A stretch of DNA of 64,000 nt from Actinoplanes sp. NBC_00393 (GTDB taxonomy: Bacteria > Actinomycetota > Actinomycetes > Mycobacteriales > Micromonosporaceae). This document shows, piece by piece, positions 18,082 to 44,071 of the stretch. The position numbers and the translations under genes were made by a program. Location of the stretch: assembly GCF_036053395.1 (NCBI RefSeq), contig NZ_CP107942.1, forward strand, positions 8,202,501 through 8,266,500, given 5' to 3'. The notes beneath the pieces are model-generated. The model ran no database searches and was not told the origin of the DNA. It worked only from the letters and a program-made list of their open reading frames with translations. Every line of letters begins with the position of its first letter. The stretch's first letter is position 1.

Positions 18082-18451
18082 CGGCCCCTCCTCGACACCC
18101 ATCCGTCTGGCACCGATGCCAGCGGCCTGCGAGGAATCTAGCCAAGGGGTATGACAGAAACGCTTATGTACCAGGCCTTCCCTGTTCTGTTCCTTGCCCT
18201 GGACGGCGTGGCGGACCTTAGTCGAGGCATCCGCGAACCCGGGCTGTTGATCATCTTCGAGCGTGGGGTCGAAGGCGGGGTCACGGGTTACGGCGCCGAC
18301 CCCGGCCAGCTGGCGACGTCGTCCTGCGGAGGTGGGTGCCGAGGTGACCGCAAAGCATTCAGCTACAACGTGTCCCGCTCGTCCCATCGGCTCGATACAG
18401 TTTTGTCCGCTGATGCTTGGTCACGAACAAGGGATGCGTGGACGTCAGGAC
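18082..18451. other. Divergent promoter region between the OLD nuclease and hamA
   Basis: 370 bases without a supported gene. In-frame upstream extensions of hamA (to 18263) and of the OLD gene (to 18387) have no ribosome binding site and low-complexity translation, so both are treated as non-coding. No clear operator or sigma-70 promoter could be picked out by eye. Confidence 0.5.
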
Positions 18452-26822: not shown

Positions 26823-29800
26823 CTACACCGCTGTCCTTGTGCCGCCGCCATGGCGGGTTACCCGTGGGCGAAGCGAGATCTTGACGGCTCTGCGGGTGAA
26901 TGCCGCGTCGGTGGACTTGTTGGACCACAAATACGCCTCGCCGCGATCGAGCGCGGCCAGCTTGGCCGGTGTCAGGTCGGCGAGTGCGGCGTTGGCCTTC
27001 TGCAGGTGTTTGAGCCAGGCCGGCGATGTGAACCGATGCAGGATGACGTGGTTGGAGAGTTCGATGAGTGGGATGGGCACTGACGGTGGGTCTTGGCTGG
27101 CCACGAGGATGCTCATGCCCTTGTGCCGCATCTCTCTGACACTTTCCACCAGGCCGTGCACCAGGTCGGGGCTCTCGATGTACTTGTGTGCCTCGTCGAA
27201 GACCACGAGCTTGTTGAACCGCTCCCCGTTGGCCGTCGCCTCGGCGAAGAGTTCCATGAGTACCACGAAGAGACCGAGCGCCTCGTCTTTCTCGATGAGT
27301 TCGTCGCGGAGGTCGACGATGATGAGGCGACCGGGCCGGACAAGGTCCTGGACCCGGAAGCTGTCGTCGATGTAGTCGGCTGCGAGGTCGAGTCGCTGGT
27401 GGGCGAGCTGCTTGATTTGGTCGGTCAGCGTGGACTGGTCGATGCCGTCGCGGAGGGCGTCAAGCGTGAGCCCGGAGCGGTTGGCCCGCATGATCCGGTT
27501 GAGCTGGCGGATGTAGGTCGACTGGTTACCGAGGGCGCCCATGAGGAAGCGCCAGTGGCTGGCCCGTAGTTCGTCGGAGCCGAACTTCAGTGGGTGGACC
27601 TCGATGGCGGGGTATTCGGCGCGGCGTGCCGCGACTTGGTCGGAGGGCGCCAGCATGACTACGTCGGTGAGTGCGGCGGGGTCGGCTCCGTAACGCTGCC
27701 GCAAGCGTTCCACCAGTTCCGCGTCGTCATTGGGTTCGACCATGCTGGCGAACTCGGGGGTGTAGGTCAGCGTGGGGCTGTAGTGGAAGACGATCGTCGC
27801 CAGTGGTTTGGGGAGTTGGTTGAGCGCCGGAACCGGCAGTGACACGGCTTCGATGATGGAGCCGAGCGTGTAGCTCTTTCCGCTGCCTTGCACCCCGAAG
27901 AGGCTGATGGTGTGGGTTTCGTTGAGGTCCAGAGCGATTCGCCTGCCTACGGCTTCACCGATCACGCCGTACTGGGGTGACGGGCGCGTCGTCCCCACGA
28001 ATACGTCCGGGTCTGCGGTGGCAGCGGCCTGCTCCGTGGCGGCGGGAACCCGCGGCTCGACAGGCACGGGTGGATCGATAACAGCTGGCGGCTCCTCAGC
28101 CGGTTCGGGAGAGTCTTCGGTCGCAGCCGGCGGTTGCTCCGGCGGTACGTCCTGCTCGGCCGGGATGTCGTGCGACCGGGCAGGTGCCCGGAAAGCTGCT
28201 CCCGCTGGCCGTGGGACGGTGAGGTCGCGACCGGACATGGTGGCGGAGGTCTGGCTGTCCGCGGAGCCGGCGGCTAGCACCGGATCGGTCACGATCGCGT
28301 CGAGCAGTTCATCGACGAGGTCGCGGCCGATGCGGTGGAACTGCACGCCCGATTCGGTGTCGATGTCGGAGCCGGAACCACTCAGGTCGAAGATCAAACC
28401 GGTACGGGTGAAGTCCAGCCGATAGCCGTCGTCGAGGTTGTCGAGCAGCCATTCCGCCTCTGCCGCCGGCCCGGCGGTCATGACGCCGTGCCGAACCGCC
28501 CGAGCGAGGTAGTGCCGCAGCAGGGTGGCGAGTTCGGCGTTGCGTACCGTCCGGTCCGGCCGATCAGGCTTCAGGAGGTCGGGGTCGAAGCTGCCACGCA
28601 GGACATCCTCGCTCCGGTCGAGTTGCTCGGAGATCTTGTCGCGAAGCTGTTGGATGTCGGCGATGCTGTTCAGTGCCGTATGGCATTTGACCTCGACGAG
28701 GCGGCAGGTGATCGTGCGTTGCCGTGCGTTCAGGCTGAACAGAGCGAGGTCGGTGCGGTGCAGCGTGACGCTTTCGGTGATCTCGTCGGCTCGGCGCCGC
28801 GCCTCTCGATAGAGTTCCAGGTGCGCGTCCAGTGGTACCAGGACCTGATCTCGTAGTACGCCCTGGTAGTCCAGGTAGAGCCGGGCGATGGCCAGGCCGA
28901 GCACTTCGGTTCGCTGGTTCGGCGCGGTAGATGCGATCTTGAACGCGAGCCGCCCGGACAGCAGCCGGAGCTGGTCGAAGAAGGCACCTGCGTGGCGCCG
29001 GTCGATGTGTACGCCGTGCTGGTCCACCATCGGGTTGAGCATGGCCCGCAACTCGTCGACCGATCGGGAGCTGACCACCAGGTGATGGTCGAGGCCCGCG
29101 TCGCCGTCCGGGGCATAGTCGATCACGTAGGCCGGGCGCCGTGTGCTGCCCGGGCTGTCGAAATATTCGACGCCGAGGGTGCGGTCGACGGTGATGACCC
29201 AGTCGCTGCATCGGTGGGCCTGGTGAAGCAGGGCGGTGTCGTCGGCGTCGAGGCTGAGCGTGATCCGTGGAACGCGCCCGTGGCCGGGTTCGCCCGTGGT
29301 GACGGTCGCGGTGGCTGCGGCGATCGTCGCCGGTAGTGCGGCCAACAGGTCGGTGCATTCCTCTGCGCCGGGCAGCTCGCGGGCGTGGCCGTGGCGGGGT
29401 TGCTTGTGCCAGGCGATGTCCGTGCCGGTGTCGACGAACCGCACTCGCATGGGTTGGACGAGCCCGTGAACCGGGACGGGCACGGCTTGCTCGTCCTCAC
29501 CGACATCGAACCGTTCACCGGTGAAGGCGTCGAACAGGACGGTCACGTGGGCGGTGTGGTTGCTGGTCGCCGAGCGGTACTCAGCCAGCGGCCGGATCGC
29601 GACCGAGAGTTTCGGAGTGAGGGCAGTCGCCGACGGTACGGCGAAAACCTCAGCCTCGGCAGTGTTGCTCCAGGTTCCTCGCAGCAGGTCGGCCAGCGCT
29701 TCGCCGACGCCCGGGGTCTGCGGGTCCGTGGCGAACAGCCGCAGGTCGTAACGCAGCTGCTTGGTCGAGGGGCGGCGTTCGAGTTCGAGCAGTGTCTCAG

Positions 29801-32174
29801 CGAGGATGTCGCCACGCCCGGCGTTGACCGCGCACACCACCAGCGTGCTCACGTACGGGTGCATCCGCAGGTATCGTTCGAGCCGGTCGGCAAGCTTGGC
29901 GGGTGGGATCGTGCCCCCGGCGGCCGGTCCGGCGGCGGCCTTCAGCGCTTGAGCGAGATCCATCAGGACGGTCTGCGGGTCGTGGGTCTCCGACGGGAGG
30001 CAGACCCCCCAGTACCGGCTGAGGTTGGCTGCCGCCATGGTCAGGCGCCCGTCGTCGGCCACCACAGTCAGCGGGAACCCGGTGGGTTCGAGTTCCAGCA
30101 GCGTGTGCCCGGCGGCGATGAGGCTGGCCGGCTCGGCTGCCGCGGCGTCCGCCAGCCAGGCGTTGCCGAGTTCGGCCCAGGTCAGTAGCCACAGCAGACG
30201 CAGTGGATGGGTCGGTGCGACGAGCGTGAGTTCCCGGTGGGTGCCTGCGGCGTCGCGGTAGTCGACCGTCACCGTGTCGACGCGGAGCAGTGCGGTGAGG
30301 TCGCGCAGTGCTCCGGCCACGGACTGCTGGGCTCGATGCAGGTGCCAGGTCAACGCGGAGGCGTACGCCTGGGCGTAGGCGATGATCGGTTCACGAAGGG
30401 TGACCAGGTCGCGACCGGCAAGGATCATGTCATCGGTGCCGGCGATCGCCTGGAAAACCGCCGTCCGACCTTGCAGGACCAGGGCCGTCGACTCGTCATG
30501 GTTCGCGGGAAGGCCGCTGTCAGACCGGTGGATCTCCACAGGGGTCTCGGCCGCTACGGTGATCCGCAACGGCTGAAGCCGTTCCGGTGCGGCGAGAATC
30601 TCCCGCTCCAACTCGCCGAGGACTGGGCCGACCTGGATCTCGGCATTGCCATACGATCCGAAGCCGGCCTGGAGGCCGACGCGGTCCCGGCCTTTCCAGG
30701 ACACCGAGCGACAGGTGAGGGTCTGCCAGTCCCGACCGTCGGCGAGCGCTGCGAACTGCAGTTGTCGCAATACCTGGGTGACGCCGACGCCTTTGGTGAT
30801 CTGTTGCCTAGTGGGCGGCTCGTCCAGGTCGTCGCCGTCGGCGACCACGTAGAAGCGGTCGCTCTCCTCAGGTGGGTGACCGCCCGACTCGATCTCCTCG
30901 CCGCGTCGACCGCGACGTTCGGCTGTCGGCAGCTCGACCCCCGCCGCGTCCAGCGGCAGCACCCGTACGTAGTGCCAACCCGGTTCCAGGTTGGCAGTGC
31001 GCAGCTTCCGCAGTTTCGCCTTGTACGGGTCGCGGACGGTGGTGGAGACCTTGACCATGGTCTGCACGCCGGCCGGACCTGCTTCTTCGGAGACCAGCTG
31101 CACCGCGAACCGGGCCAGGCCGGTGACCGTACGTGGATCGGGTTCGACGCGGAAGGTGACCGCCAGTTCTGTCTGCCCGGAGCCACCGGCGATGAGGTAG
31201 GGCTGGCCGGCGATGCTGCCCAGCACCGCATGGTCGGCGTGCTGCGGCTGGCTGCCGGCCAGTGGCAGATCGAGTTCGCCGACTCGGATCGTGACGTGCT
31301 GGACCGGTTGTTCGTCGGGCAGCGGCCAGCGGTGGAAGGCGAGCGGCCAGTTGGCGTGGTCGACGACGATCGGCCGGGTCCAGGCTCTCGGGTCATCCAG
31401 GCCGGTGCGGGTCAGGAAGTCCGCGAGCCGGGACCGGAAGCCTGCATCGGTGAGCCGTAACGCGATCACCCGCTGGCGTACGGATCGGTCCGGGGTGTTC
31501 AGCGTGCGGACCGCGGCCACGTTGCGCTGTACACGAAGTCGCACACCGGCAGGTTCGGTGAAGACCTCGAAGTCGGGGATCAGGCCCAGTTCGAACAGCG
31601 CTGCCCCGGCGGCCGGACGGTCGTAGTCGTTGGCGGCAACGGTCAGCAGATACCGTGCCCGCTCGGCAGCACCGGCTGGACGTGCCGCGTGTTCGTCGAG
31701 CGCGGCGAACATCTCGAGCAGATCGTGGCGCAGTTCGTCCGGCACGTTCACCAGCAGTTGCGCTATCAGGTCGGGGTAGACCTCGCCGAGCGTGACGTCC
31801 TCGAAGGTGGCCACGTCGAACGAGTCCTCGGCGCTGACGTGCACCCCGGGTGGGAGGAAGACGAGCAGCGGCGGACGCAACCGGTCCTGGGCGTCCGGGT
31901 TGCGCAGCTCGACCAGCTTGGTGCTGGTCACGGCGACGTCGGCGGCGACGGTCGGCGGCTGCCCGAGGACGTGCACCTGCGCCTGATCGCCGACGGCCTC
32001 GCGTAGCCTGCGGCACAGCCGCTCGGCCAGCGAGGCGGGTACGTCGGCGACCCGCGCGCAGTGGCCCCTCCCACGGGCTGCCAGCAGGCTGGACAACCGT
32101 GGGACGAGCACTCGTTCGAGCGCCTCGTCGAAGTCGGCGTCGGTGATCTCCCGCAGCCCGGTGCTCGTGCTCAT
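26823..32174 (-). CDS. mad8: MADS ATP-binding protein MAD8 (HerA/FtsK-like C-terminus)
   Basis: 1783 residues. The ATG at 32174 overlaps the stop of the previous gene (ATGA). A longer frame to 32990 is an overlap artefact. The first 1350 residues are large mixed domains without recognisable catalytic motifs. A Pro/Glu-rich linker near 1360-1400 leads to a P-loop module of the HerA/VirB4 type: LFGVQGSGKSYTL near 1428, Walker B LVVFDEAHKY near 1658, then the SILVASQDPPSVP sensor and a C-terminal SLRPR end. By analogy with HerA-like pumps it may move along or translocate DNA. Last gene of the operon, followed by a strong terminator. Gene name rests on position, size and ATPase type. Confidence 0.75.
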   Translation of the reverse strand: MSTSTGLREITDADFDEALERVLVPRLSSLLAARGRGHCARVADVPASLAERLCRRLREAVGDQAQVHVLGQPPTVAADVAVTSTKLVELRNPDAQDRLRPPLLVFLPPGVHVSAEDSFDVATFEDVTLGEVYPDLIAQLLVNVPDELRHDLLEMFAALDEHAARPAGAAERARYLLTVAANDYDRPAAGAALFELGLIPDFEVFTEPAGVRLRVQRNVAAVRTLNTPDRSVRQRVIALRLTDAGFRSRLADFLTRTGLDDPRAWTRPIVVDHANWPLAFHRWPLPDEQPVQHVTIRVGELDLPLAGSQPQHADHAVLGSIAGQPYLIAGGSGQTELAVTFRVEPDPRTVTGLARFAVQLVSEEAGPAGVQTMVKVSTTVRDPYKAKLRKLRTANLEPGWHYVRVLPLDAAGVELPTAERRGRRGEEIESGGHPPEESDRFYVVADGDDLDEPPTRQQITKGVGVTQVLRQLQFAALADGRDWQTLTCRSVSWKGRDRVGLQAGFGSYGNAEIQVGPVLGELEREILAAPERLQPLRITVAAETPVEIHRSDSGLPANHDESTALVLQGRTAVFQAIAGTDDMILAGRDLVTLREPIIAYAQAYASALTWHLHRAQQSVAGALRDLTALLRVDTVTVDYRDAAGTHRELTLVAPTHPLRLLWLLTWAELGNAWLADAAAAEPASLIAAGHTLLELEPTGFPLTVVADDGRLTMAAANLSRYWGVCLPSETHDPQTVLMDLAQALKAAAGPAAGGTIPPAKLADRLERYLRMHPYVSTLVVCAVNAGRGDILAETLLELERRPSTKQLRYDLRLFATDPQTPGVGEALADLLRGTWSNTAEAEVFAVPSATALTPKLSVAIRPLAEYRSATSNHTAHVTVLFDAFTGERFDVGEDEQAVPVPVHGLVQPMRVRFVDTGTDIAWHKQPRHGHARELPGAEECTDLLAALPATIAAATATVTTGEPGHGRVPRITLSLDADDTALLHQAHRCSDWVITVDRTLGVEYFDSPGSTRRPAYVIDYAPDGDAGLDHHLVVSSRSVDELRAMLNPMVDQHGVHIDRRHAGAFFDQLRLLSGRLAFKIASTAPNQRTEVLGLAIARLYLDYQGVLRDQVLVPLDAHLELYREARRRADEITESVTLHRTDLALFSLNARQRTITCRLVEVKCHTALNSIADIQQLRDKISEQLDRSEDVLRGSFDPDLLKPDRPDRTVRNAELATLLRHYLARAVRHGVMTAGPAAEAEWLLDNLDDGYRLDFTRTGLIFDLSGSGSDIDTESGVQFHRIGRDLVDELLDAIVTDPVLAAGSADSQTSATMSGRDLTVPRPAGAAFRAPARSHDIPAEQDVPPEQPPAATEDSPEPAEEPPAVIDPPVPVEPRVPAATEQAAATADPDVFVGTTRPSPQYGVIGEAVGRRIALDLNETHTISLFGVQGSGKSYTLGSIIEAVSLPVPALNQLPKPLATIVFHYSPTLTYTPEFASMVEPNDDAELVERLRQRYGADPAALTDVVMLAPSDQVAARRAEYPAIEVHPLKFGSDELRASHWRFLMGALGNQSTYIRQLNRIMRANRSGLTLDALRDGIDQSTLTDQIKQLAHQRLDLAADYIDDSFRVQDLVRPGRLIIVDLRDELIEKDEALGLFVVLMELFAEATANGERFNKLVVFDEAHKYIESPDLVHGLVESVREMRHKGMSILVASQDPPSVPIPLIELSNHVILHRFTSPAWLKHLQKANAALADLTPAKLAALDRGEAYLWSNKSTDAAFTRRAVKISLRPRVTRHGGGTRTAV

Positions 32175-33766
32175 CGTGATGGTCCAGCCGAGTTGAGGAG
32201 GTATCGGGGCGTGATGGTCTGCGTCAGATACGCGTCGGACAGATCGCTGTAGAAGCCGATCTCCCGCAGTTTGGCGACGAAAGCCGCGCGGTTGGCCCGC
32301 AGCGCGGCCTGATCCGTGAGGGTAGGCGCGCCGAAGCCGTCTCCCGGCGGCAACTGGTCGATGTACAGGCCGTAGGTCTCGCGGAGCTCTTTCAGGAACT
32401 CGTCGACTCGGAGCGGCTCCGTGCGCAGCAGGCCGTGACCGTCCGGCCGTAACAAGGCCAGCTGCAGCAGAACCTCCAGCAGCCGGCTGTCGAAGATGAA
32501 CCGGCGTTCGCCGCGGCGCGGCTGGGCGATCATGGCACCCGGCCGGTTCTTGAGTAGGAGCGCGTCGAGGCATTCGGTGAGGTATTTGCGATGGAATGCC
32601 ACCCGGCAGCTCGAGATGATCTCGATGTAGGTGGTGAACGCATCGAGTTTGAGCCCCACCAGGTCGGCGATCGCCGAGTCGGCGTCCTCCTCGGATTCCT
32701 GTACCGCATCGAGCACCCGCGGCAGGCGAGATTTGGCGAAGGCTTCCCGGTCGGTGCGGTATCGGGGTTCCAGCAACTGCAGTAACTCGGGGACCCCGAA
32801 CACCCCGTCGGCCGGGCGACGGCGCTTGTTCGTCCGGACCAGGTGCGCGGCCAGGTCGTCGAGCTTGCGCACGGTGAAGGTCCCTTGGATGAACTCGGGC
32901 ATCCGCGCGTACCAATAACGGGCGCTGCGCTCGGCCAGCGCGGCCACGGGCGTACCGGGAATGCCGGCCACGTCGAGGAAGAACCCGCACGTGGGGTCAC
33001 CGGTCTGCCCGGCGATGCGCTGCGGCAGCAGCCGCATCAACCGCAGGTGGTACCGGGCGAGGTGGAACGCGAACAGGATCTTCAGGTGCTCGACTAGCAC
33101 CGAGCGGGGAATGACCTGCTGGTGGTACAGCAGCCGGAAGAGGTCGGTCACCAGCAACCGCGCCGCTTCCTGGTCCAACGGCGGATAGCCGTACGCCGCC
33201 TTGCCCTCCCGGTCGGTGACCTTCTTACGCAGCACCTGGGCCAGGTTGATCAGCGCCTGGGTCTCGACATCGACCGTGGCACCCGTGGCTGGCGTCTCGG
33301 TACGACCGTCGACACCGGCGAAGAAGAACTGTTTGAGGTCGTCCAGCGCCCGTGCCCCGCGACCACCGGGTTCGTGGCGGATCATCCAGTACAGCTGATC
33401 ATCTGCCCCGTAGGGCCGTGACCGCTTGCCCGCCCGATACCGGTAGGCGAATCCGTGCAGTGGGCGCAGCCCGGCCACCGCCTGGCCCGGACGCCCACGG
33501 TTGACCAGGTCGAGCAGGTTGGTCTCCAGCCAGCGGTAGGTCATGGCCGGGTCGAATCCCTGGAACAAGTCCGGGTTGTCCCGGATCTGATCGACGTAGG
33601 CGTCGATCGGGATGCCGTCCGGCGCTCCGATCACCACGCTCGGCGAGCCGCGGAACCACAGCCGTGGCAGCAGCCCGGTCAGCACCCGGTCCATGTCGAG
33701 TTGCTTGTAGTCCAGGAAACTCACGCCGGGATGACGGAACTCCCGGTCCTGACGGTGCAGTCCCAT
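32171..33766 (-). CDS. mad7: MADS protein MAD7, unknown function
   Basis: 531 residues from the ATG at 33766, which overlaps the kinase stop by one base (TGATG); a GTG one codon earlier is also possible. No catalytic motif could be found. The sequence is mostly helical with the conserved-looking pieces LDYKQLDMDRVLTG at the start and SCRVAFHRKYLTECLDALL near residue 400. It is coupled to mad6 and to mad8 by overlaps, so it probably is made in fixed ratio to them and may be a scaffold or adaptor. The name rests on operon position alone. Confidence 0.7.
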   Translation of the reverse strand: MGLHRQDREFRHPGVSFLDYKQLDMDRVLTGLLPRLWFRGSPSVVIGAPDGIPIDAYVDQIRDNPDLFQGFDPAMTYRWLETNLLDLVNRGRPGQAVAGLRPLHGFAYRYRAGKRSRPYGADDQLYWMIRHEPGGRGARALDDLKQFFFAGVDGRTETPATGATVDVETQALINLAQVLRKKVTDREGKAAYGYPPLDQEAARLLVTDLFRLLYHQQVIPRSVLVEHLKILFAFHLARYHLRLMRLLPQRIAGQTGDPTCGFFLDVAGIPGTPVAALAERSARYWYARMPEFIQGTFTVRKLDDLAAHLVRTNKRRRPADGVFGVPELLQLLEPRYRTDREAFAKSRLPRVLDAVQESEEDADSAIADLVGLKLDAFTTYIEIISSCRVAFHRKYLTECLDALLLKNRPGAMIAQPRRGERRFIFDSRLLEVLLQLALLRPDGHGLLRTEPLRVDEFLKELRETYGLYIDQLPPGDGFGAPTLTDQAALRANRAAFVAKLREIGFYSDLSDAYLTQTITPRYLLNSAGPSR

Positions 33767-36700
33767 CACGCCTCCGCAGCCGGGCCGGTCGAGGTCTCGG
33801 GGGCGTCCATCACCAGAACACCGCCGTCGGCGATCCGGATCCGGCGCACATCGCGGCCGGCCACGGTGAGCAACAACTCCCGGTACGGGGTGGCCGACAG
33901 TTCGTTCTTGAAGATGGTCAGCCCCAGGTACAGCCCTTGCTGCTCGGCCGAACTGGGTAGATGCCCGTTACCGAGCCGGAACAGCAACTCGAACAGGTCC
34001 AGCCTGATCCGCAGTCGAGCCTCATGACCGCCCGGACCATGATGGCTGAGCACCAGCTCCTGACAACCGCCTTCCAGATAGGCCGACGCCGGGCCACCGG
34101 AGGGACGCAAACGGAGGCTGTCCGCGGGGAACAACCGGTAACTACGGACGGTGCCACCGGGAATCGCCCGGACCTGCAACGCGAGCGCACCACCGGACAC
34201 TGCGGCACCGGAAAGCCCTTCACCTCGGTTGATCGCGGTGATCAGGTCGGGTAGATGTCCGGGCACCCGATCCGGGTGGGCGAGCAACTCGGTGAAAGTC
34301 CGCGCCGACCGGTACGGCAGCATCCGGGACGAACGTTCCTCGTCCACACACTCGAAGTAGAAGCGGCGGCGGGCCGCCGCCAGGTATCGGCGGTGCGCTT
34401 CGGTCTCCGCCGGGTTCGCTGCGGCGCCACGCGGCAGCCGGGCGAACGCATCGTCGAGCAACCGCTGGTCGTAGTCGCCGCGCTGGTCGACCGTCATCAG
34501 AGCGCGCCCGGCGTCCGGTCCGACATAGTCCAGCCGCCGGTCCAGGGCAGGGTCGGCGACCGCGGCCACATCGAGCTGAGCCAGCAGCGCCAGGAGTCGG
34601 TCCCGGCCACCGGCCGGACCGATCCAGCTGTTGAAGTAGAACCCGTCGAGGATCGCGTCGCTGTCACCACGCGTATACAACTGATCGATCTGTTCGCAGT
34701 CCCGGCCCGAGGTCAGCAGGTAGGCCAGCGCGGACCCGACGTCACGCATGGTCAGATGCTGTACCCCGCGCAGAGCGGCGGTGGTGAACAGCATCCGCAA
34801 CCGCCCGGCGATTCTGGGGCCGACGCCCTCGTTGGCCAGCGTCTGCGCGTTGTGCCGGGCGTAGCAGGTGGCAGCGAGCGGACATCCCCCACACGCCTCC
34901 CACTGGGCCGGGTCGGTCATCCGGGCCAGCAGCCGGTCGAAGATCGGCGGCCCGAACTCCTCGGATTCGGAGAACAGACTCCGCCGATTCATGTTGATCA
35001 CCGCGACCGGGCCGTCGTCGGCAGCGCCGCCCAGCCCGGCACGCACCCTCGCCGCCAACGCGGGAAACCGCTCTTCGTGGACACTGACGAAATCGACCAG
35101 CCGACCTTCGTTGATGGCCATCAGCCGGGTCTCCCCGGCATTGCCGCCGAGTTCGGTTCCGGCGTACGGGGCGAAGAAGTCCGACAGCACCTCGTCGTTG
35201 GCGCGTTCTCCCTCGTCCTGGCTGCCGTCGTGGTTGGTGCGCAACCAGCGGCCGTTCGCCAGCCGGAGGTCAGCGCCGTTGTCCCGATACACCGGCACAT
35301 CGGCACCGGCGGCTTGCGCATCGCTCAACAACTGCTGCAGGTACGCCGTCTTGCCGTCACCCGCATTACCCGTGATGATCACCAACTGGTAGCGCCCGGC
35401 CAGCACCGCCTCGGTCAGCCGGGTGTCCAGTGCCGTGGACACGTACAGGTCGAACGGCCGGGCGCCGCTACGGGTACCCGCGTTGCTGCCGGCGCTCTGG
35501 CTGTACAGCGAACTCAGGAAGCCGACGAACGGGTTCGTCCCCTGCTGCGCGGCGGGCACGGTGACCGGTGGCGGGGTAGCCGGCTTCATCGGCCGGTGAA
35601 CCCGGTCGCCGACCGATCGCAGGGCGGTCAGGAACTCGGCCGCACTCGCATACCGCTCGCTGCGCCACGGCGCGATGGCCCGGAGCAGGACGCCGACCAA
35701 CTCGTCGGAGAGGTTGGTGAGGCCTGCGTAGGTCCGTGGATCGACCGCCGGCTCACCGGCGGCGCGCCGCACCCCGTCACCGAACGGCCACCGCCCGGTG
35801 AGCAGCTCGTACAGTGTCACACCGAGCCCGTACACGTCGCGGTCGACCAGGTCCGCGATCGTCACCCGGCCCGAGGAATAATCCGGTGGGGCATATTGGG
35901 GGGTGCCACCGACCTCGGACAGGCTGTCGCTGGCCCGGGTCGCCACGTTGAAGTCAAGGATCTTGCAGCCCACGTCGGTGCGCAGCAGGTTGGCCGGCTT
36001 GACGTCGCAGTGGAAGATGCCCTCACCGTGCAGGTGGGCCAATCCGTCCGCCACGTCGACGCCGAACCGCACCACATCCGCTGGCCCCAACGCCCGGTCG
36101 GCGACCAAGGACTTTCCATCTCGCCCTTCGAGGTGCTCGAACACCACGTAAGGCACCTTGCCCAACTCGAGGTAATCGGCCTCGCGCACCACCACGATGC
36201 TGCGATGCAACGGCAGACTCAGCAGCAGCTTGAACTCCCGCTTCAACCGCTCGACCACCGAATCGGTACCCCGGTGAACGATCTTGACCGCACGCTCCTC
36301 GTCGGCCAGATTGTCATAGACCCGGTACACGGTGCCGAACCGGCCCGCTCCCAGTTTCGCCCGAACCTGGTACTTCGCCGTCAACTGATGCCCTGGCGGC
36401 AGATTCCCGTAATCGACCTCGGCCGGCTTCGGCCGACTCACACCGGCCGCAACCCGGGCCAGCCGCTGCAATTCACGCAACGCATCCGCCGCCGACGGCC
36501 GAGCCGACGGCGCCAACGAACACATCCGGCGCAGCAGCGCCTCCACCGGCGGATCCACCCCGGCCGCCGACAACGCCGAATCCGGCAGGACACTGCCCCG
36601 ACGGAACTGGTCTGCCGACGACGCGAACGGCAACTCCCCGGTGAGCAACTGAAAGCCGATCACCCCGGCCGCGTAGACGTCCGAGGCACGGCTCATCGCC

Positions 36701-37839
36701 TGCGCCCGATTCTGACACTCCGGCGCCACATAGGCCGGGTCGAGCGCGTCGGCCAGGCTGCCGACGACCGTGTAATCGCGCGCCCCTTCCGGGCGGGCGT
36801 AGTCGAAACCGGTCAGCAGCGCCCGCCCGGTGTCACTCGAGACCAAAACCGCGGTCGGGGTCAACGCCCGGTGCAACACCGCGTAGGCGTGCGCATGAGC
36901 CAGACCTCGCACGATGTCACCCAAGACCCGCAATCTTGCGTCGGCGCTCAGCGCCTGCCGCGGATCCCTCAGATGAACGGCCAGAGCCTGCCCCCGCGTG
37001 TCGTCGAGGACCAGCACGAACCGGCTGTCGTCGTCGCTGGCGAAGAACGTCCGGCGCCCCACGATGAACGGGCTCGGCGGCAACTTCGCCAGCACCTCGT
37101 ACGCATTGGCAATCTTGAGCTTCTGGGTGGCGCGCTCCCGTTCCGGCAGCAACGGATTGGCCCGATACACCCGCAGCAGGACCGTCTCGTCGGCTCCGGC
37201 CACCGCGTTGCGGGCCCGATAATCGGTGACCTCATCGTCGCCGCCGAGCCGCTCGATCACCACCCAGTCACCGAACCGTTGCGGCCCGGTCGGTCGGCGG
37301 ACCGTGCCGGTAAGCGCTTCAATGATCGCCGCCTGATGCTGGCGGACGTCGCGCGCCATCCCCGGCCGAACCCGGGACACGTCACCCAACGCCGCGATCA
37401 GCCCGTCCAGGTCGGTGACGTGCAGCGCGTCCGCGTCGTCACGGTCACTCGGGTCGACCAGCCTGGCCTGTGGGCCGACCAGAGCGACGAGCTGATCGAC
37501 ATAGACCCGCGACAACGCGGGCCGATGCTGGGTGAGCAGGCCTTTCACCGCACGGGCATGCGCCCTCAGCTTGCGTACGGGTGAGGCGAACGGTTCCCGG
37601 CCCGCCGGGTACCAGCGGGTGCCGGCGACATCGATACGCCCCCGGGTGCCCTTCACATCAACCAGGCAGACGCCCCGCGCGTTGACGACGACGAGGTCTA
37701 CCTCGTAGCTGTCCCCGTGCACCGGGATCTCGACGTTGTGCAGGATGATCCAGTCGTCGGGGGCGTACTCGGCCAGATGCCGCAGCACCAAACGCTCGGC
37801 GTCGTTGGCCGGGGTCCCCCCGCCGACGATCTGGGCCAT
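33766..37839 (-). CDS. mad6: MADS protein kinase MAD6: NERD, two kinase-like domains and P-loop ATPase
   Basis: 1357 residues. Residues 20-65 form a NERD nuclease-like module (DSYEVDLVVVNARGVCLVDVKG). Residues about 190-460 are a degenerate kinase (HRALTPTAVLV in place of HRD, GFDYA in place of DFG). Residues about 490-750 are a second Ser/Thr kinase: GAGRFGTVY near 500, the lysine in ERAVKIV, the catalytic HCDVKPAN near 613, and DFN instead of DFG. Near 826 a P-loop (GNAGDGKTAYLQQLL) opens a C-terminal ATPase domain. So it combines an active-looking kinase, a pseudokinase and an NTPase. In the MADS order this is MAD6. Starts 2 bases after the S-subunit stop. Confidence 0.82.
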   Translation of the reverse strand: MAQIVGGGTPANDAERLVLRHLAEYAPDDWIILHNVEIPVHGDSYEVDLVVVNARGVCLVDVKGTRGRIDVAGTRWYPAGREPFASPVRKLRAHARAVKGLLTQHRPALSRVYVDQLVALVGPQARLVDPSDRDDADALHVTDLDGLIAALGDVSRVRPGMARDVRQHQAAIIEALTGTVRRPTGPQRFGDWVVIERLGGDDEVTDYRARNAVAGADETVLLRVYRANPLLPERERATQKLKIANAYEVLAKLPPSPFIVGRRTFFASDDDSRFVLVLDDTRGQALAVHLRDPRQALSADARLRVLGDIVRGLAHAHAYAVLHRALTPTAVLVSSDTGRALLTGFDYARPEGARDYTVVGSLADALDPAYVAPECQNRAQAMSRASDVYAAGVIGFQLLTGELPFASSADQFRRGSVLPDSALSAAGVDPPVEALLRRMCSLAPSARPSAADALRELQRLARVAAGVSRPKPAEVDYGNLPPGHQLTAKYQVRAKLGAGRFGTVYRVYDNLADEERAVKIVHRGTDSVVERLKREFKLLLSLPLHRSIVVVREADYLELGKVPYVVFEHLEGRDGKSLVADRALGPADVVRFGVDVADGLAHLHGEGIFHCDVKPANLLRTDVGCKILDFNVATRASDSLSEVGGTPQYAPPDYSSGRVTIADLVDRDVYGLGVTLYELLTGRWPFGDGVRRAAGEPAVDPRTYAGLTNLSDELVGVLLRAIAPWRSERYASAAEFLTALRSVGDRVHRPMKPATPPPVTVPAAQQGTNPFVGFLSSLYSQSAGSNAGTRSGARPFDLYVSTALDTRLTEAVLAGRYQLVIITGNAGDGKTAYLQQLLSDAQAAGADVPVYRDNGADLRLANGRWLRTNHDGSQDEGERANDEVLSDFFAPYAGTELGGNAGETRLMAINEGRLVDFVSVHEERFPALAARVRAGLGGAADDGPVAVINMNRRSLFSESEEFGPPIFDRLLARMTDPAQWEACGGCPLAATCYARHNAQTLANEGVGPRIAGRLRMLFTTAALRGVQHLTMRDVGSALAYLLTSGRDCEQIDQLYTRGDSDAILDGFYFNSWIGPAGGRDRLLALLAQLDVAAVADPALDRRLDYVGPDAGRALMTVDQRGDYDQRLLDDAFARLPRGAAANPAETEAHRRYLAAARRRFYFECVDEERSSRMLPYRSARTFTELLAHPDRVPGHLPDLITAINRGEGLSGAAVSGGALALQVRAIPGGTVRSYRLFPADSLRLRPSGGPASAYLEGGCQELVLSHHGPGGHEARLRIRLDLFELLFRLGNGHLPSSAEQQGLYLGLTIFKNELSATPYRELLLTVAGRDVRRIRIADGGVLVMDAPETSTGPAAEA

Positions 37840-37841
37840 CG

Positions 37842-39254
37842 CTACCGGGCCGCCTCTCGCACCGCATCATCCAAGAGCTTGAAAGCCTGATCCTCTTTCT
37901 TATCAGCCTCGTCCCGATCTCGATACGCCGCCCGCACCGTCTCCGCGATCCGCTCCCGGTCACTCTGTGTACACTCCGGTACTGGAATCTCTGCGCGAAG
38001 CATCTCGTGGATGTCCTGCTGCTTTCCACCGGTGGCAAGAGACCGCAGGATTCGAAATGCTGCCTCCGAGCGCAGGAAAGCAAAGAGGTATGCGCCGGAA
38101 AATTCTGGATCGCCCGATACTACCCTCAGGAAATGCTCGGAGAAAACGTAATTGTCAATCCAGCTCCCGGTAGCGAAGACTGGGCGACAGAATACTTCAC
38201 CTTCGCCCAACGTGCCTTGTGAAGCGATCAGTACCGTCTCGTTGGCCGCCTTGACAGCCCTCTGCTCAGCCTCAGACATCAAGATTCGGCGCCCTTCGGG
38301 CCTGAGCCAGAATCCTTGACGTTGTCCTACTAGCTGGACGCCGTTTTCAGAATCGCTTTCAACGCGCTTAAAACGATTGCCGCGTGCTAGGCGACCACCC
38401 CTACATATGTCACCCAGAGTTCGATGAGGAATCCCCGAAAGCCGCGAGAGGATCCGACGCGTGCGGGGCGTGAAATTCAGTGCCCGAATCGTCATCGGAG
38501 TCAGCCCGCTGACACTGAAGTCGATGTCGCGGGGCTGGTCGTGCCAGCGAACGTCCAACAAATCGGGAATACCAGCCGACTCGAAGAGATCCCGCGTGGC
38601 GGCGCAGACCCCATCCTCAAACCGCTGACGTGACTCCATGGATTCCTGGATGAGCTCGTCGATACGATGTTCCTTCGCTTTCCCAATGCGCGGGATCGGA
38701 ATTTCTGCGACGTGCTCCGGTTCGATATGGCGAACGCTGGTGCCATAGACATCACCTTTCACCATCGGGATTCCGAGCGGGCTGGCGAGAAAAGTATAAA
38801 GATAGCCCGGCGGAATCTTGTCGCCGTCAGCTACAACCCGTAGTACGTCCTCGCTGCATGCAAGCCCTTGCATGCTCAGCCTTGCGTAAGCGACTCTCCC
38901 CGCCGTCATCCCGGAACGAGTAATAAGCGTCCAGCCAGGCTCGATGGGAAGCTTGGGGTTTTTCTTCATTGCGGAACGGGTTAATAGCTGAAGACTGGTC
39001 AGATCGGCCTGGAAAATGTCAGCACTGCCAAGAAAGGGCACACCGAAGTCGGGGCTCGTAGTCCAGGATCGAGTGACGCGACCAGCGTGGAATATCCGAC
39101 TGGTAACCTCTCCAAGCGTTTCGGTTCGAGGGTATTCCTGGATTAAAGTTCTAGCGTCGTAAGCCCTGGATACATAGGGCTTCGCATCAAGGCGGAAACC
39201 CTTCTTAGCGAGCCAGCTGGCGCGTACCGGGGTGTCGAGGGCGGCGATTTTCAC
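37842..39254 (-). CDS. mad5: MADS restriction-type specificity subunit MAD5 (HsdS-like)
   Basis: 470 residues. Two target-recognition halves are visible: LGEVTSRIFHAGRVTRSW and TLGDICRGGRLARGN at similar places in each, each followed by a helical spacer (DELIQESMESRQRFEDGV and the C-terminal DRERIAETVRAAYRDRDEADKKEDQAF). It should set the sequence the methyltransferase modifies. Base composition is clearly more AT-rich than its neighbours, typical of diversifying S genes. GTG 39254 overlaps mad4 by 4 bases. Confidence 0.85.
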   Translation of the reverse strand: MKIAALDTPVRASWLAKKGFRLDAKPYVSRAYDARTLIQEYPRTETLGEVTSRIFHAGRVTRSWTTSPDFGVPFLGSADIFQADLTSLQLLTRSAMKKNPKLPIEPGWTLITRSGMTAGRVAYARLSMQGLACSEDVLRVVADGDKIPPGYLYTFLASPLGIPMVKGDVYGTSVRHIEPEHVAEIPIPRIGKAKEHRIDELIQESMESRQRFEDGVCAATRDLFESAGIPDLLDVRWHDQPRDIDFSVSGLTPMTIRALNFTPRTRRILSRLSGIPHRTLGDICRGGRLARGNRFKRVESDSENGVQLVGQRQGFWLRPEGRRILMSEAEQRAVKAANETVLIASQGTLGEGEVFCRPVFATGSWIDNYVFSEHFLRVVSGDPEFSGAYLFAFLRSEAAFRILRSLATGGKQQDIHEMLRAEIPVPECTQSDRERIAETVRAAYRDRDEADKKEDQAFKLLDDAVREAAR

Positions 39255-39880
39255 AAAGTCTCCTCGGGAAACCAGTCACGCAGTGTGTCGCGAAGCTGGA
39301 GGAATGCGGGATCGATGCAATTCTTGACGGACACCCGGCCAGCCACTCGGTGGAAAACTGCCTTCGACGTGTCGGCGCGATGGCGCCGCCGTAGATGTTC
39401 GAGCGCCGCCTTCGGGTTGCCCGGCTTGGTCTGGCCCGCAGGCCAGTGCCCGCTGACGGTGAGGATGTGCCGGAAGTCCGGCGGGCAGCCCAGGGCGCCC
39501 GCCAGGTTGGGGTTGTCCTGCCAGAGCCAGGCCTCAAGTTCGGGGTCGAGGACGACCACCACATACTCGTCCCACTCCAGGCTGACGTTCTTGCTGATCC
39601 GGTCGTGGATGTTCTTGACGCCGGGACTGCCCTCCCAGTCGTTGTCGAGCATCACCACGGCATGCCGGTGGGTGGCCACGTATGGTCGCAGCAGTTGGTG
39701 GGCGAGGCCGTACACTTCCGGGTCGCGGCGGGAGGCGACGACGATGTCCGTCGGCTCGACTGTGAAGCTCCCACAACCGAGCCGGCGGTGGCTCGCAGGG
39801 TTACCGAAGAATCCGCGGACCATCTGTTCCATCGAGCCGTCCGCGACGAGGAAGACGACGTCACGCTTGTCTGCTGGCAT
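39251..39880 (-). CDS. mad4: Small TOPRIM-like MADS protein MAD4
   Basis: 209 residues with a GGGGAG site before ATG 39880. VVFLVADGSMEQMV near residues 9-22 supplies a Glu and AVVMLDNDWEG near 74-84 supplies an Asp-x-Asp, the TOPRIM arrangement seen in DUF4276 and RloB-like proteins. A second acidic strand (VVVVLDPELEAWLW) is also typical of those. It could be a nuclease or nucleotide-acting effector. The gap to mad3 is 21 bases, the largest inside the operon. Confidence 0.7.
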   Translation of the reverse strand: MPADKRDVVFLVADGSMEQMVRGFFGNPASHRRLGCGSFTVEPTDIVVASRRDPEVYGLAHQLLRPYVATHRHAVVMLDNDWEGSPGVKNIHDRISKNVSLEWDEYVVVVLDPELEAWLWQDNPNLAGALGCPPDFRHILTVSGHWPAGQTKPGNPKAALEHLRRRHRADTSKAVFHRVAGRVSVKNCIDPAFLQLRDTLRDWFPEETL

Positions 39881-39901
39881 GACTCCCCTGGGTGAAGGTC
39901 G

Positions 39902-41191
39902 TTACGAGAAGACGCCGGCTGCGAAGAGGGTGCCGATGTCGATGTTGCCCTGCCATTCCCTCAGCTGGGGGTGTTCGTCGCCCGGGATGACGGTAACGGC
40001 GCCGTCAGTGCCGATCCGGGCCGCGAGCACGTCGCTCAGCTCAGTGTTGGCCAGCACGATCGGCGATTGGGTGGAGACCAGCACCTGCCCGTTGTAGATC
40101 GAGGACAGCGACTGCACTACGGTTTCGATGGCCCGCGGGTGTATGCCGTTCTCCGGTTCCTCGGTGGCCAGCAGCCGGGGTATCGCCGCGGTCGGCAGAT
40201 ACGGCAGCAGCGACAGGGCGAGGATACGCAGCGTCCCCTCGGACAGCCCGGAAGAGGTCACCCGATATCCGCCTGCGTAATTGACCGCGAAGTAGGCGTA
40301 GTGGTCCTCTTCGCGTTCGATCGCGGTGATGTCGGCGACCTGTGGCAGCGCCGTGCGCACGTGGTCCACCCAGAAGCGGAAGCGGTCCGGATCGGACTGC
40401 TGCAGATGCAGGGCGAGCCACGGGGTGTTGCGCCCGTCCGGCAGCAGCCGCACCGGGTCGCCGGGTGGTGCCGCCTCACGCAGCGAGTCCCAGTCCGGGT
40501 TGTAGAACACCACTCCCTCACGCAGCAGCTGGCCCAGCCACAGCGCCGCGGGGAACAGTTCAGGGTCGGCGAGCACCGCGCCGAGCGCAAGCTGACCGGG
40601 CGGTACTTTCAGGTCGGGTATGCGCGGCCCGCGGGTCGTGGTCTCCACCCAGAAGCGGGTGGGTTCGCCAGCACCGGGCCGCCGGATGATCACCTGCCCG
40701 TTCTTGGTGCGCTTTTGCGTCAAGGATTTGCCCTGCAGCGGAACACCCGGCTGCGGCCTCGGCCCCGTCTCGGGGAAGAGGAAAAGGTATTCCTCGACGA
40801 CACGCAATTCGTAGTTGAACACCTCCAGGCGTACCTCGTACCGAAGGTGGGTGGGGGTGTGCTCGGCGAGCGAGGGCGCGCTGCGTCCGGCCATCATGTT
40901 CTCGATGTCGGCGGGCAGCCGGGCCTCGATCGAGAAGGTGAGCGACTCGCCGTGCCCCTGATGCAGGAGTTCGGTGAGGGTCCGCGCCCGCGGGACCCGC
41001 CGCGCGGGCTGCGGGCGCAGGAATGCGTCGGCCGCCCGCTGCTGCCCGAGCAGGTCCCCGAGCAGCACCGGGATGTCGAGCAGGGTGGTCTTTCCCGCGC
41101 CGTTGCCCCCGGCCAGCACGTGATATCGGTCGAAGTCCACGCTAAGCCGCGGAAAGCACCGATATCCGTACGCCTCGACGCGGGTGATCAT
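39902..41191 (-). CDS. mad3: MADS AAA-family ATPase MAD3
   Basis: 429 residues of the RecF/SMC-like AAA_21 type. Walker A GGNGAGKTTLL is near residues 29-38, a signature SGLSEGTLRILALSLL precedes Walker B LATEEPENGIHPRAIE, and a VSTQSPIVLANTE switch follows. Short ATPases of this type pair with TOPRIM partners, and mad4 directly downstream fits that. Its ATG overlaps the methyltransferase stop by 4 bases. Confidence 0.82.
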   Translation of the reverse strand: MITRVEAYGYRCFPRLSVDFDRYHVLAGGNGAGKTTLLDIPVLLGDLLGQQRAADAFLRPQPARRVPRARTLTELLHQGHGESLTFSIEARLPADIENMMAGRSAPSLAEHTPTHLRYEVRLEVFNYELRVVEEYLFLFPETGPRPQPGVPLQGKSLTQKRTKNGQVIIRRPGAGEPTRFWVETTTRGPRIPDLKVPPGQLALGAVLADPELFPAALWLGQLLREGVVFYNPDWDSLREAAPPGDPVRLLPDGRNTPWLALHLQQSDPDRFRFWVDHVRTALPQVADITAIEREEDHYAYFAVNYAGGYRVTSSGLSEGTLRILALSLLPYLPTAAIPRLLATEEPENGIHPRAIETVVQSLSSIYNGQVLVSTQSPIVLANTELSDVLAARIGTDGAVTVIPGDEHPQLREWQGNIDIGTLFAAGVFS

Positions 41192-43344
41192 CGGGGTGCT
41201 CCAGGCTCGGGGTGCGCCTCGCGGAACTCCCGGTACTTCTGGGCGATGACCGGCAGGTCGTTGTCGATCGCCTTCTCTCGGCGGGTGATCCGTCGGACGG
41301 TTGCGACCCCGTTGCGCCGGATGTTCTCCACGTACTCCTTGGGTTCCAGGACCACCTCACCATCCGGGCGGCGTTTGTACACCGGCTTACCCCTGCGGTC
41401 GAAGCCGACCTTTTCGGCCACCGCCATGAAGACCGGGTAGTCCACCTGCTGACCTAGATCGGCGGCCATCCGTTCCTCGCGGGTCTTGCGCTTGAGGAAC
41501 AGCAATGACGTCAGGATGTTGACGTCGGCCTCGTGCACGAACGTCTCGACCGGCAGCTCAACGCTGGCCAGCACCCAGCAGTTGTCCAGGATCCAGCGGC
41601 GGATCCCCTCGTCGGACGGCCCCGGGTTGGACAGGATCCCGTTGGGCAACACGATGCCGATCTTGCCGCCGGGCCGGACCCACTCCACGGCACGCTGGAT
41701 GAACAGTTGCTCCGGCGACATCGCGGAGACCCGACTGCCGGGAGTGGCCTCGACCAAGCCGGTCTCCTTGTTCCGCGACCATGGCTGCGCAACGCCGTCG
41801 CGGTAGTGCTCAAGGATCTCCTGATCTTCGATCTTGATGTCCGTACCGAACGGCGGGTTCGTCATAAGGATGTCGACCTGGCCCAGGGGAAGCCGGTCCC
41901 GGGCCACGATGCGATCCTCCAGGTGCCCCCCGGGGAAGGCCAGCGAATCCATCCAGAAGGCGTTGCCAGCCACACCGGTGAGCAGCATGATGCTCATACT
42001 GGTGGCGCGGACCAGGAAAGGGTCAAAGTCCGCCCCGAACAGGTGATCCTGGACGTACGCCGCGAGCCGTTCCTGGTGTGTCTCGAGCTGTTCCTCGGTG
42101 TCCGGCAGCCCGGTGGTGCCCTCCTCGGCTTGCCACTTCTTGAGCAGGTGCCGCAGCGTCGCCCGGAGGAAGCCGCCTGTGCCGCAGGCGGGGTCGAGGA
42201 CGACGTCGTCCTCCTGAGGGTCGAGGATCTCTACCATCAGGTCGACCGCGCCCTGTGGGGTGAAGTACTGCCCGCGGTCACCACGAAGGTTGGTGCCGAC
42301 CAGTTCCTGGTAGGCGATGCCCTTGGCGTCGATGTCCGTGCCGGCCAGGTCGTAGGAGGCGAGTTCACCGACGATGAAGGCCAGCGCCCGGTCCGACATC
42401 GTGATCTGGTCGCGCTCGGTGAAGAGCGGGTACTGTTTCTTCACTTCGGTGAAGAGTTCCTTCACCCGCTTGGCGATTTCCTCGCGCCCGTCCTTGTCGA
42501 ACGGCTCCTTGGGCAGGGCGTAGAAGCGCCGCGGTACACCCAGCCGCCGGCTCTCCCGCTCGTCGTACACCTTGGCGAAGATGACGTATAGGAACTGCCA
42601 GAAGGCGGCGTCCTTTGGCAGGCCCTCGTTGCCGTGCACGTAGTTGTGGCAGCGCCGGAACGCCGTCTTGAGCATGGCGGCCTCGCCACGCCGTAGCCGG
42701 GCTGCCGAACCCAGAGTGCCGCTGAGGCTCTCGTGGCTGACCGGCCAGTCCGCCCGGTCGTCGAACTCGACGCCGAAGGTGCTGGTCTCCCGGTGCAGGA
42801 AGAAGAAGTCGAGCCCGTTGGTCCACATGCCGTACTGGGCGTTCGGCGTCTGAGGCTGACCGAGCAGGTCTTTGAGTTCGTCGAGGTCTTTCCCCGCCTG
42901 CTCGAAGGTTCGGATCTTCGTGACCGCCCGGCCGCTCTTGGGCTCCGGCTTACAGACCACGACGCGCTGCAGGTTGGCCAGCGTGTGCTCACTGCCAGGG
43001 GCGAACACGGCGATGTCCGCTTTCTTCGTGCTGCGGCGGCGGCCGTCGATCGACACCGGGATGGGGAAGTCACGCTCCATGTCGTCGACGGAGACGCCAT
43101 ACTCCAAGAACAGCGCACGAGCGATCCGCTGCCGGACCCGTTCGTTGCCGCGATCCTTGATCCGCCGGTCGGTGATGTAATCGATGATCTCGTCTTCGGC
43201 CAGCGCATCGTCGTCGGCTGCGGCGCCGGCCTCCGCCTCGTCCACCGTGTTGTCCTCGAGGTCGAAAAGCGTATCTACGCCGTTGTCATCCGTCATCGTC
43301 CTGCGCTCAGCCCTTCCCACTTCATCGCTGCGGCACGCTTTCAT
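41188..43344 (-). CDS. mad2: MADS N6-adenine DNA methyltransferase MAD2
   Basis: 718 residues from the ATG at 43344 (GGAG site); ATG 43296 is an alternative. The N-terminal 200 residues resemble a type I R-subunit N-domain (KKADIAVFAPGSE ... VVVCKPEPKSGR). The catalytic part is HsdM-like: helical domain, then motif I DPACGTGGFL near 386, a motif region ADFDPFLVRATSMSIML, and NPPFG near 495. It should methylate adenine in host DNA with the S subunit mad5. First gene of the seven-gene leftward operon. The fused R-like N-domain separates it from ordinary HsdM. Confidence 0.88.
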   Translation of the reverse strand: MKACRSDEVGRAERRTMTDDNGVDTLFDLEDNTVDEAEAGAAADDDALAEDEIIDYITDRRIKDRGNERVRQRIARALFLEYGVSVDDMERDFPIPVSIDGRRRSTKKADIAVFAPGSEHTLANLQRVVVCKPEPKSGRAVTKIRTFEQAGKDLDELKDLLGQPQTPNAQYGMWTNGLDFFFLHRETSTFGVEFDDRADWPVSHESLSGTLGSAARLRRGEAAMLKTAFRRCHNYVHGNEGLPKDAAFWQFLYVIFAKVYDERESRRLGVPRRFYALPKEPFDKDGREEIAKRVKELFTEVKKQYPLFTERDQITMSDRALAFIVGELASYDLAGTDIDAKGIAYQELVGTNLRGDRGQYFTPQGAVDLMVEILDPQEDDVVLDPACGTGGFLRATLRHLLKKWQAEEGTTGLPDTEEQLETHQERLAAYVQDHLFGADFDPFLVRATSMSIMLLTGVAGNAFWMDSLAFPGGHLEDRIVARDRLPLGQVDILMTNPPFGTDIKIEDQEILEHYRDGVAQPWSRNKETGLVEATPGSRVSAMSPEQLFIQRAVEWVRPGGKIGIVLPNGILSNPGPSDEGIRRWILDNCWVLASVELPVETFVHEADVNILTSLLFLKRKTREERMAADLGQQVDYPVFMAVAEKVGFDRRGKPVYKRRPDGEVVLEPKEYVENIRRNGVATVRRITRREKAIDNDLPVIAQKYREFREAHPEPGAPR

Positions 43345-43404
43345 GGTGATCTCCGTGCCGACCGTGCCGGAATATTACGGCCCGGGACTGACAAACCTGG
43401 GCGC

Positions 43405-43474: not shown

Positions 43475-44071
43475 TTACAGCTCCTCGGTGAGCCAAACCC
43501 ATGCGTGCATCTTGTCGCCGGTGACGTCATGATTGACAACCTCGCCGATCCGCTCGTCGGCCAGCGGGTACTCCACGCCACCCTTGCTGGTCAGGAACAT
43601 GCTGGCAAACAGCCGCGCATCGTCGTAAGACTCGCGCAGCTCCTTCACCACCCCTGGATATTCGGCGGCTACAAGATGGCCCAGCGCTTCCGATATCTGT
43701 TCGCCATCGTCGTACGCGTGGTTGTCGACTTCAAACCCATCTCGCTCGATGAGCTGGCCCAGCGTAAACACGTCGATCAGCGGGGCCGGGCCGAGCAGCC
43801 CGCTGTTGACCTTCTCTCGCCAGTCGTCAGGGGATCCCTCCCCGAAAGCCCTGGCGCAGAAGTCGAGGTAGAAAGCGCTGACGGCGAGAGCTCGAAGGAT
43901 GCAGCGCGTGCGCTCGATCTCAGAGGTGTAGGTGGCCAATCCGCGTTGCCCAAGCAGGCCCCATGCGTGCTCGACCCAGGCCAGCTCGGAGCCGAATGAC
44001 CACGTGGAGATGACTGGCGTCACGACCTCCTCGACCTCGGACCAGTCCAAGCGATCTACTTCAGCACTCAT
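43475..44071 (-). CDS. Unrecognised protein upstream of mad2
   Basis: 198 residues, ATG 44071 with GGGAAG nearby. The sequence is acidic and helical (YTSEIERTRCILRALAVSAFYLDFCARAFG near residues 48-78) and ends in a Trp-rich piece (HAWVWLTEEL). It has no HTH and no catalytic motif I can name. It lies on the same strand 130 bases before mad2, so it may be the first gene of the operon or an unrelated cargo gene. It is not an evident MAD1, which is described as HTH-containing. Confidence 0.7.
   Translation of the reverse strand: MSAEVDRLDWSEVEEVVTPVISTWSFGSELAWVEHAWGLLGQRGLATYTSEIERTRCILRALAVSAFYLDFCARAFGEGSPDDWREKVNSGLLGPAPLIDVFTLGQLIERDGFEVDNHAYDDGEQISEALGHLVAAEYPGVVKELRESYDDARLFASMFLTSKGGVEYPLADERIGEVVNHDVTGDKMHAWVWLTEEL

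Follow-up and report, generated by a model that had tools for sequence, protein, structure and literature searches.

Which DNA does the seven-gene operon mad2 to mad8 of Actinoplanes sp. NBC_00393 mark as self, and with what machinery would it attack DNA lacking the mark? The genome of this strain (G000) is a single contig of 11,433,213 bases, and the operon lies in a stretch of 64,000 nucleotides, hereafter the window (G000:C1:8202501-8266500). Judging from its sequence, it is a complete, probably working operon and a sound representative of an established type, MADS, reportedly a methylation-associated defense system with a CRISPR partnership. We consider it likely that MAD2 and MAD5 provide self-marking and that MAD6, MAD7 and MAD8 attack unmarked DNA in the manner of DndFGH/SspFGH. 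A second operon in the same chromosome carries an exchanged MAD5. The restriction mechanism of MADS is listed as unknown in the relevant passage of a 2026 review (PMC12904381).

The mad2 to mad8 operon

The operon consists of seven open reading frames (ORFs), all on the minus strand and without internal stops (window 26823..43344):

43344-41188 (longest ORF; likely start 43296), minus strand: mad2, N6-adenine DNA methyltransferase, HsdM-like
41191-39902, minus strand: mad3, AAA_21 ATPase in an accessory slot
39880-39251, minus strand: mad4, partner of mad3
39254-37842, minus strand: mad5, type I-like specificity subunit
37839-33766, minus strand: mad6, 1357 aa, with NERD, pseudokinase, Ser/Thr kinase and a DndF-like core
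33769-32171, minus strand: mad7, protein of predicted DndG fold
32174-26823, minus strand: mad8, DndH-like protein of 1783 aa

The joints mad2/mad3, mad4/mad5, mad6/mad7 and mad7/mad8 are overlaps of 4 bases, and there are gaps of 21 bases between mad3 and mad4 and of 2 bases between mad5 and mad6; a 531-aa database record suggests a mad7 start one codon further downstream, which would reduce the mad6/mad7 overlap to 1 base. The ATG of mad8 at 32174 overlaps the mad7 stop, and the mechanical ORF of 2055 aa starts within mad7. An earlier note on this DNA had described mad2 to mad8 in the published order, closely packed with short overlaps and gaps of 2 and 21 bases: ORFs and profiles agree on the order, the joint coordinates bear out the spacing, and the gene coordinates stand except for the start of mad2, which is probably the ATG at 43296 instead of that at 43344. 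The former is favoured because the ORF of the second operon begins at the matching downstream ATG.

The note had also proposed a profile comparison of each protein, and this placed all seven, MAD2 to MAD8, above the NCBIfam equivalog cut-offs of MADS: MAD2 (NF047738, 1014 bits, cut-off 720), MAD3 (NF047739, 579 bits, cut-off 420), MAD4 (NF047734, 266 bits, cut-off 160), MAD5 (NF047740, 559 bits, cut-off 400), MAD6 (NF047741, 755 bits, cut-off 460), MAD7 (599 bits, cut-off 410) and MAD8 (NF047742, 211 bits, cut-off 175, scored on the longer ORF). The PADLOC mad2 to mad8 models likewise matched all seven, with the generic MTase_II model (1.8e-202) outranking the mad2 model (3.1e-75) for MAD2. 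The match to MADS is not due to chance, since each protein exceeds its own cut-off while in the phylum sample of 396 genomes MAD7 was found in only 3, G000 being one of them.

Genome samples for MAD7 and MAD2 were drawn from the phylum, family and class, and MAD2 was over its cut-off in 12 of 354 and 7 of 394 genomes (18 distinct, as G000 is in both sets). A search with MAD7 returned 1281 relatives, and among the 120 listed there are many from Actinomycetota with MADS names. In a scan of species genomes 292 stretches matched the pattern and 235 encode a relative; among the best 80 of these 235, which were analysed, the top 17 are actinobacterial by title. MADS is thus uncommon yet well established in Actinomycetota, and the earlier note's surprise at a host so far from Pseudomonas does not survive, since the nearest publicly available MADS proteins and loci include many from actinobacteria.

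Probable modification genes and a second operon

MAD2 matches Pfam N6_Mtase, with motifs DPACGTG and NPPF, and has an HSDR_N-like stretch (Pfam). MAD5 matches the Specificity_I and Specificity_II models; third-position GC of mad5 is low in both operons. MAD2 and MAD5 together would act as a modification enzyme of type I-like build, with MAD5 selecting the bipartite motif that receives N6-methyladenine.

The slot between MAD2 and MAD5 was compared in 82 loci (the best 80 of the species scan plus two), of which 11 were dropped because a gene was outside the stretch or not found. The remaining 71 show both genes, and their slot holds a MAD3-like gene (26 loci), is empty (<100 bp; 39) or has other content (6), in two cases a second N6-methyltransferase (L146, L150) and in one, L152, a Fic gene accompanied by a small partner. 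Because the content of the slot varies among loci, MAD3 and MAD4 are an optional accessory pair and not part of the core. MAD3 is AriA-like and HEC-01-like (PADLOC); MAD4 had no Pfam match, and a weak match to DUF4276 appeared in 2 of 19 aligned relatives (best E 0.0014). It is a speculation from sequence that MAD4 acts as a TOPRIM-like partner of MAD3, in a PARIS-like guard.

Strong matches to MAD7 occur in three places of the genome and to MAD2 in two. They include a second complete mad2 to mad8 operon, which spans the start of the record (the record ends were joined by script). The twin-operon block is 16.57 kb long with 88.8% nucleotide identity. It starts 38 bp ahead of the mad2 ATG at 43344 and ends exactly with the mad8 stop, and the flanks differ. 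Protein identity between the operons is 95.2% for MAD2, 93.0% for MAD3, 93.3% for MAD4, 65.8% for MAD5, 93.1% for MAD6, 95.7% for MAD7 and 93.6% for MAD8. Synonymous divergence (dS) is 0.24-0.36 in six genes and 1.62 in mad5, and nonsynonymous divergence (dN) is 0.02-0.04 in six of the seven. Two features of the window copy stand out in the comparison:

43297..43382, minus strand: conserved 5' leader, common to both operons of the genome (blastn block edge at 43382)
37961..39200, minus strand: exchanged tract within mad5, codons ~17 to 430, comprising both target-recognition domains and the spacer

Nucleotide identity to the second operon is ~60% inside the tract and ~90% or more just outside it (~92% before the drop), and the last 40 residues are identical in both MAD5s. 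In a quick tree of MAD2 and MAD7 (17 rows) the two operons are sisters, with a Shimodaira-Hasegawa-like approximate likelihood ratio test (SH-aLRT) value of 100; in a quick tree of MAD5 (28 rows) the window copy groups with P0122, from Actinoplanes sp. NPDC026619 (support 100), and the second copy with P0136, P0150 and P0156 (support 99). P0122 is 92% identical to the window MAD5 in the second recognition domain and 70% in the first, so half-swaps of MAD5 also occur. Two MAD2 over the cut-off were found in G000 alone among the 18 genomes, a count based on at most three candidates scored per genome and in which drafts may hide further copies. A NACHT-domain gene and IS3-like transposase genes lie upstream of the second operon (L023 3265-9538), and lantibiotic genes downstream (L022).

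Exchange is also apparent among relatives. Of 121 operon pairs, not independent of each other, whose MAD2, 6, 7 and 8 average 82% identity or more, 119 have a MAD5 identity below that average, and in 67 it trails by 20 points or more; in an extreme pair (L115/L116) the core mean is 93.8% and MAD5 is 34% identical. Such frequent exchange of MAD5 suggests that new specificities arise in MADS in the way known from type I restriction systems. The MAD5 core of the second operon differs by exchange, so that the cell probably runs two self-marks with interchangeable machinery; as the MAD5 C-termini are identical and the MAD2s nearly so, each MAD2 may well work with either MAD5.

An unlikely but serious alternative is that both MAD5s share one motif, in which case the second operon would be a redundant copy and the divergence of MAD5 would leave specificity unchanged. 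Between the two MAD5s, identity is 63% in one target-recognition domain and 56% in the other, against 20-35% in several further operon pairs; at such values both could still read one motif, which counts against two distinct marks. The divergence is, however, limited to the specificity core and has sharp edges, and domain swapping has left its signature in other close pairs (L099/L100), with 95% identity in one recognition domain and 52% in the other; both observations speak for a difference in motif. If two marks are indeed in use, the twin operons are a natural experiment in which two methylation self-marks are kept compatible in one cell.

MAD6, MAD7 and MAD8 as a proposed DndFGH-like module

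The following features of MAD6 and MAD8 were located:

37480..37806, minus strand: NERD nuclease domain of MAD6, aa 12-120 (PF08378, 1.2e-17), with DVK at aa 61-63
35605..36390, minus strand: kinase domain of MAD6, aa 484-745 (Pkinase, Pfam), with HCD kept and DFN replacing DFG
33928..35448, minus strand: DndF/SspF-like core of MAD6, aa 798-1304 (SspF 4.2e-29; BLASTP to annotated DptF 4e-21), with GNAGDGKT at aa 824
29055..29897, minus strand: methyltransferase-like domain of MAD8, aa 760-1040, probably inactive
28623..28751, minus strand: predicted PD-(D/E)xK residues of MAD8 (D1142, E1161, K1163, Q1184), invariant in 21 aligned MAD8, with D..EVK aligned with DptH
26826..27995, minus strand: HerA/FtsK-type ATPase domain of MAD8 (HerA models), with GVQGSGKS at aa 1427 and DEAH at aa 1660

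The predicted model of MAD7 has the DndG fold. MAD8 aligns with DptH by hhalign (98.7%, E 2.6e-16), and a search of PDB sequences with MAD8 yielded five matches at E ≤ 10, the best at 1.9e-4, and those with a telling name are HerA-type ATPases; the same search with MAD7 gave a single ribosomal-protein match (E 0.66), taken as chance. From sequence and model, the C-terminal core of MAD6, the fold of MAD7 and MAD8 match DndF, DndG and DndH in the same order, with remote sequence similarity. MAD6, MAD7 and MAD8 would then form a restriction complex of DndFGH/SspFGH type that lands on DNA without the mark, where the HerA-type ATPase of MAD8 would drive movement along the DNA and the MAD8 nuclease would damage it; the NERD and kinase domains of MAD6 may gate the complex or serve as a second effector.

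Several results weigh against this proposal. PADLOC DndF models reach only E 0.011, the DndG and DndH models gave zero matches to MAD7 and MAD8 at E up to 1, and hhalign of MAD7 found nothing against one DptG sequence, a comparison in which a DptG profile could not be built as the protein search gave three proteins, the query among them. A fold search of MAD8 aa 760-1300 gave no Foldseek match at E ≤ 0.001; it mainly covers the methyltransferase-like part and does not reach the nuclease part. The MAD6 kinase has DFN, not DFG. Finally, SspFGH is described, in the part of PMC8092258 that deals with it, as without sequence homology to DndFGH, so that the two yardsticks used here are themselves mutually remote.

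The main effector could instead be the kinase/NERD half of MAD6, acting by protein phosphorylation or suicidal DNA damage, with the DndFGH-like part only a sensor. The DVK residues of NERD and the HCD of the kinase are present, and a section of PMC10853773 that describes DndF variants with NERD and an inactive plus an active kinase proposes such N-terminal DndF domains as co-effectors. We find this reading rather improbable, given that the nuclease and ATPase residues of MAD8 are invariant in 21 aligned MAD8 and that SspFGH alone, in the pertinent part of PMC8092258, damages unmodified DNA.

That the F-G-H set is a separable module is supported by sets without MAD2-5. A third, divergent MAD6-7-8-like set lies at G000:C1 ~5,823,020-5,833,289 (L041 2521-12790, minus strand), with 25% identity in MAD6 and scores of 416.8 bits for MAD7 (cut-off 410), 413 for MAD6 (460) and 69.5 for MAD8 (175); a UvrD-like gene is upstream. 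No MAD2 match besides those of the two operons was found in the genome at E ≤ 1e-10, and hence none near this set. A plasmid of Rhizobium phaseoli has an F-G-H set of the same kind, also without MAD2-5. In a Priestia plasmid (L051 4232-17715) dptF, dptG and a DndH-like gene come directly after genes for an AlwI-family endonuclease and a Dam-family methyltransferase, another F-G-H set adjoining adenine methylation genes. A plasmid of Bacteroides finegoldii (L054 4973-20663) carries a MADS-like operon that lacks mad3-4; the gene following it encodes a PP2C phosphatase, possibly the counterpart of the MAD6 kinase. MADS-like operons with MAD2, 5, 6, 7 and 8 occur in two IMG/VR contigs (L153, L154), one with 33% MAD7 identity, and the Mycobacterium phage record prophiGD51-2 (H18, MW584195.1 13226-15154) encodes a MAD2-like methyltransferase (35.7% over 92%).

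Surroundings of the operon and comparison with known systems

MADS reportedly comprises eight genes, mad1 being a small helix-turn-helix (HTH) gene upstream of mad2. The two genes upstream of the window operon gave no mad1 match, and 130 bp separate mad2 from the nearer one:

43475..44071, minus strand: gene of 198 aa, without match in Pfam, PADLOC or NCBIfam at the limits used

A protein 68.7% identical to its product is encoded in another genome of the genus (G417), and the block of homology with that genome (44082-26823) starts 11 bp before the gene and ends exactly at the mad8 stop; the stretch of the second operon has no homologue. The PADLOC mad1 model (60 positions) is uninformative, with 150 scored matches of generic HTH kind among 486 candidates in the genome, and its sole match within the window is near 61.7 kb, away from the operon. 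BLAST with two query proteins against plus-strand ORFs (E ≤ 1e-4) detected mad1 in proteobacterial, myxobacterial and cyanobacterial loci (e.g., L112, L116 and L143) and in none titled Actinomycetota; in about 10 of the latter the region upstream of mad2 is outside the stretch, and the search may overlook a diverged HTH. Nor is mad1 required by the NCBI models for the remaining seven MADS proteins.

The missing mad1 would fit a decayed or silent relic, a reading that is very hard to sustain against full-length ORFs, conserved catalytic motifs and a dN of 0.02-0.04 versus a dS of 0.24-0.36 in six of seven genes; the run holds no pseudogene, which the earlier note had named, together with placement in bacteriophage exclusion (BREX) systems or another family, as grounds for dropping MADS. 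We give practically no credence to a BREX type 2 or other PglW system, which the PglW-like NERD-kinase half of MAD6 (PADLOC PglW 4.4e-61) might recall, as the scores for BREX PglW (198 bits, cut-off 990) and BREX-6 PglX (18.5 bits, cut-off 900) are far too low and all seven MADS cut-offs are passed.

Downstream of mad8, at 125 bp, there is a gene of 502 aa (window 25189-26697, minus strand) that is weakly GapS1-like (44 bits, cut-off 320); neither the fetched stretch of the second operon nor that of G417 encodes a homologue (E ≤ 1e-3). Further away are a Hachiman-type pair (18263-22739, plus strand; HamA, PADLOC 3.9e-80, and HamB helicase, E 0), an AAA_21 protein of 902 aa with OLD/GajA/AriA-like and MAD3-like matches (15679-18387, minus strand), and a tyrosine integrase (14367-15521, plus strand). 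Since 6 of the 18 integrase matches of the genome cluster within 0.14 Mb (G000:C1 8.18-8.32 Mb) and the part of the window from ~14 to 50 kb has a lower GC than its surroundings, the region is probably a genomic island.

The genome has no Cas1 match at E ≤ 0.001, which makes the CRISPR partnership reported for MADS unlikely here. In the content and order of mad2 to mad8, their tight packing and the equivalog cut-offs, the operon agrees with MADS (Maestri et al., 2024, Cell Host Microbe); it differs in that no mad1 HTH gene was found upstream and in the second complete operon of the chromosome. With BREX type 2 (PglW) it shares the NERD-pseudokinase-kinase half of MAD6, but PglW and PglX scores set it apart; a parallel between PglW and DndF, though not MADS, is noted in a passage of PMC12839542. 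MAD2 is like HsdM and MAD5 like HsdS of type I restriction-modification systems, with exchangeable recognition domains, but an HsdR-like helicase or ResIII domain was not found in the seven proteins (Pfam, E up to 0.001). The word MADS does not occur in the main text of the two closest papers (PMC10853773, PMC12839542), and as the original MADS paper was not covered we make no claim of priority for the link to DndFGH. With DndFGH/SspFGH, the operon has in common the MAD6 core, the MAD7 fold and MAD8 in matching order, including the probably inactive methyltransferase-like domain and the HerA/FtsK ATPase of MAD8, as in DndH; phosphorothioation proteins, looked for among the seven operon proteins only, are absent, and an N6-adenine methyltransferase and a specificity subunit stand in their place. 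The odds seem to us evenly balanced that in MADS a DndFGH machine has been switched from phosphorothioate to N6-methyladenine marks, a single modification-agnostic F-G-H core serving different epigenetic marks, and that it is present here in two versions whose exchangeable MAD5 confers two self-marks, each to be respected by both F-G-H sets. If MAD6, MAD7 and MAD8 are a complex of DndFGH type, the published traits of SspFGH and DndFGH become ready tests for MADS: a translocase subunit, an attack on unmodified DNA and toxicity when the mark is lacking. For SspFGH, the relevant part of PMC8092258 reports the latter two and also that phage replication is suppressed.

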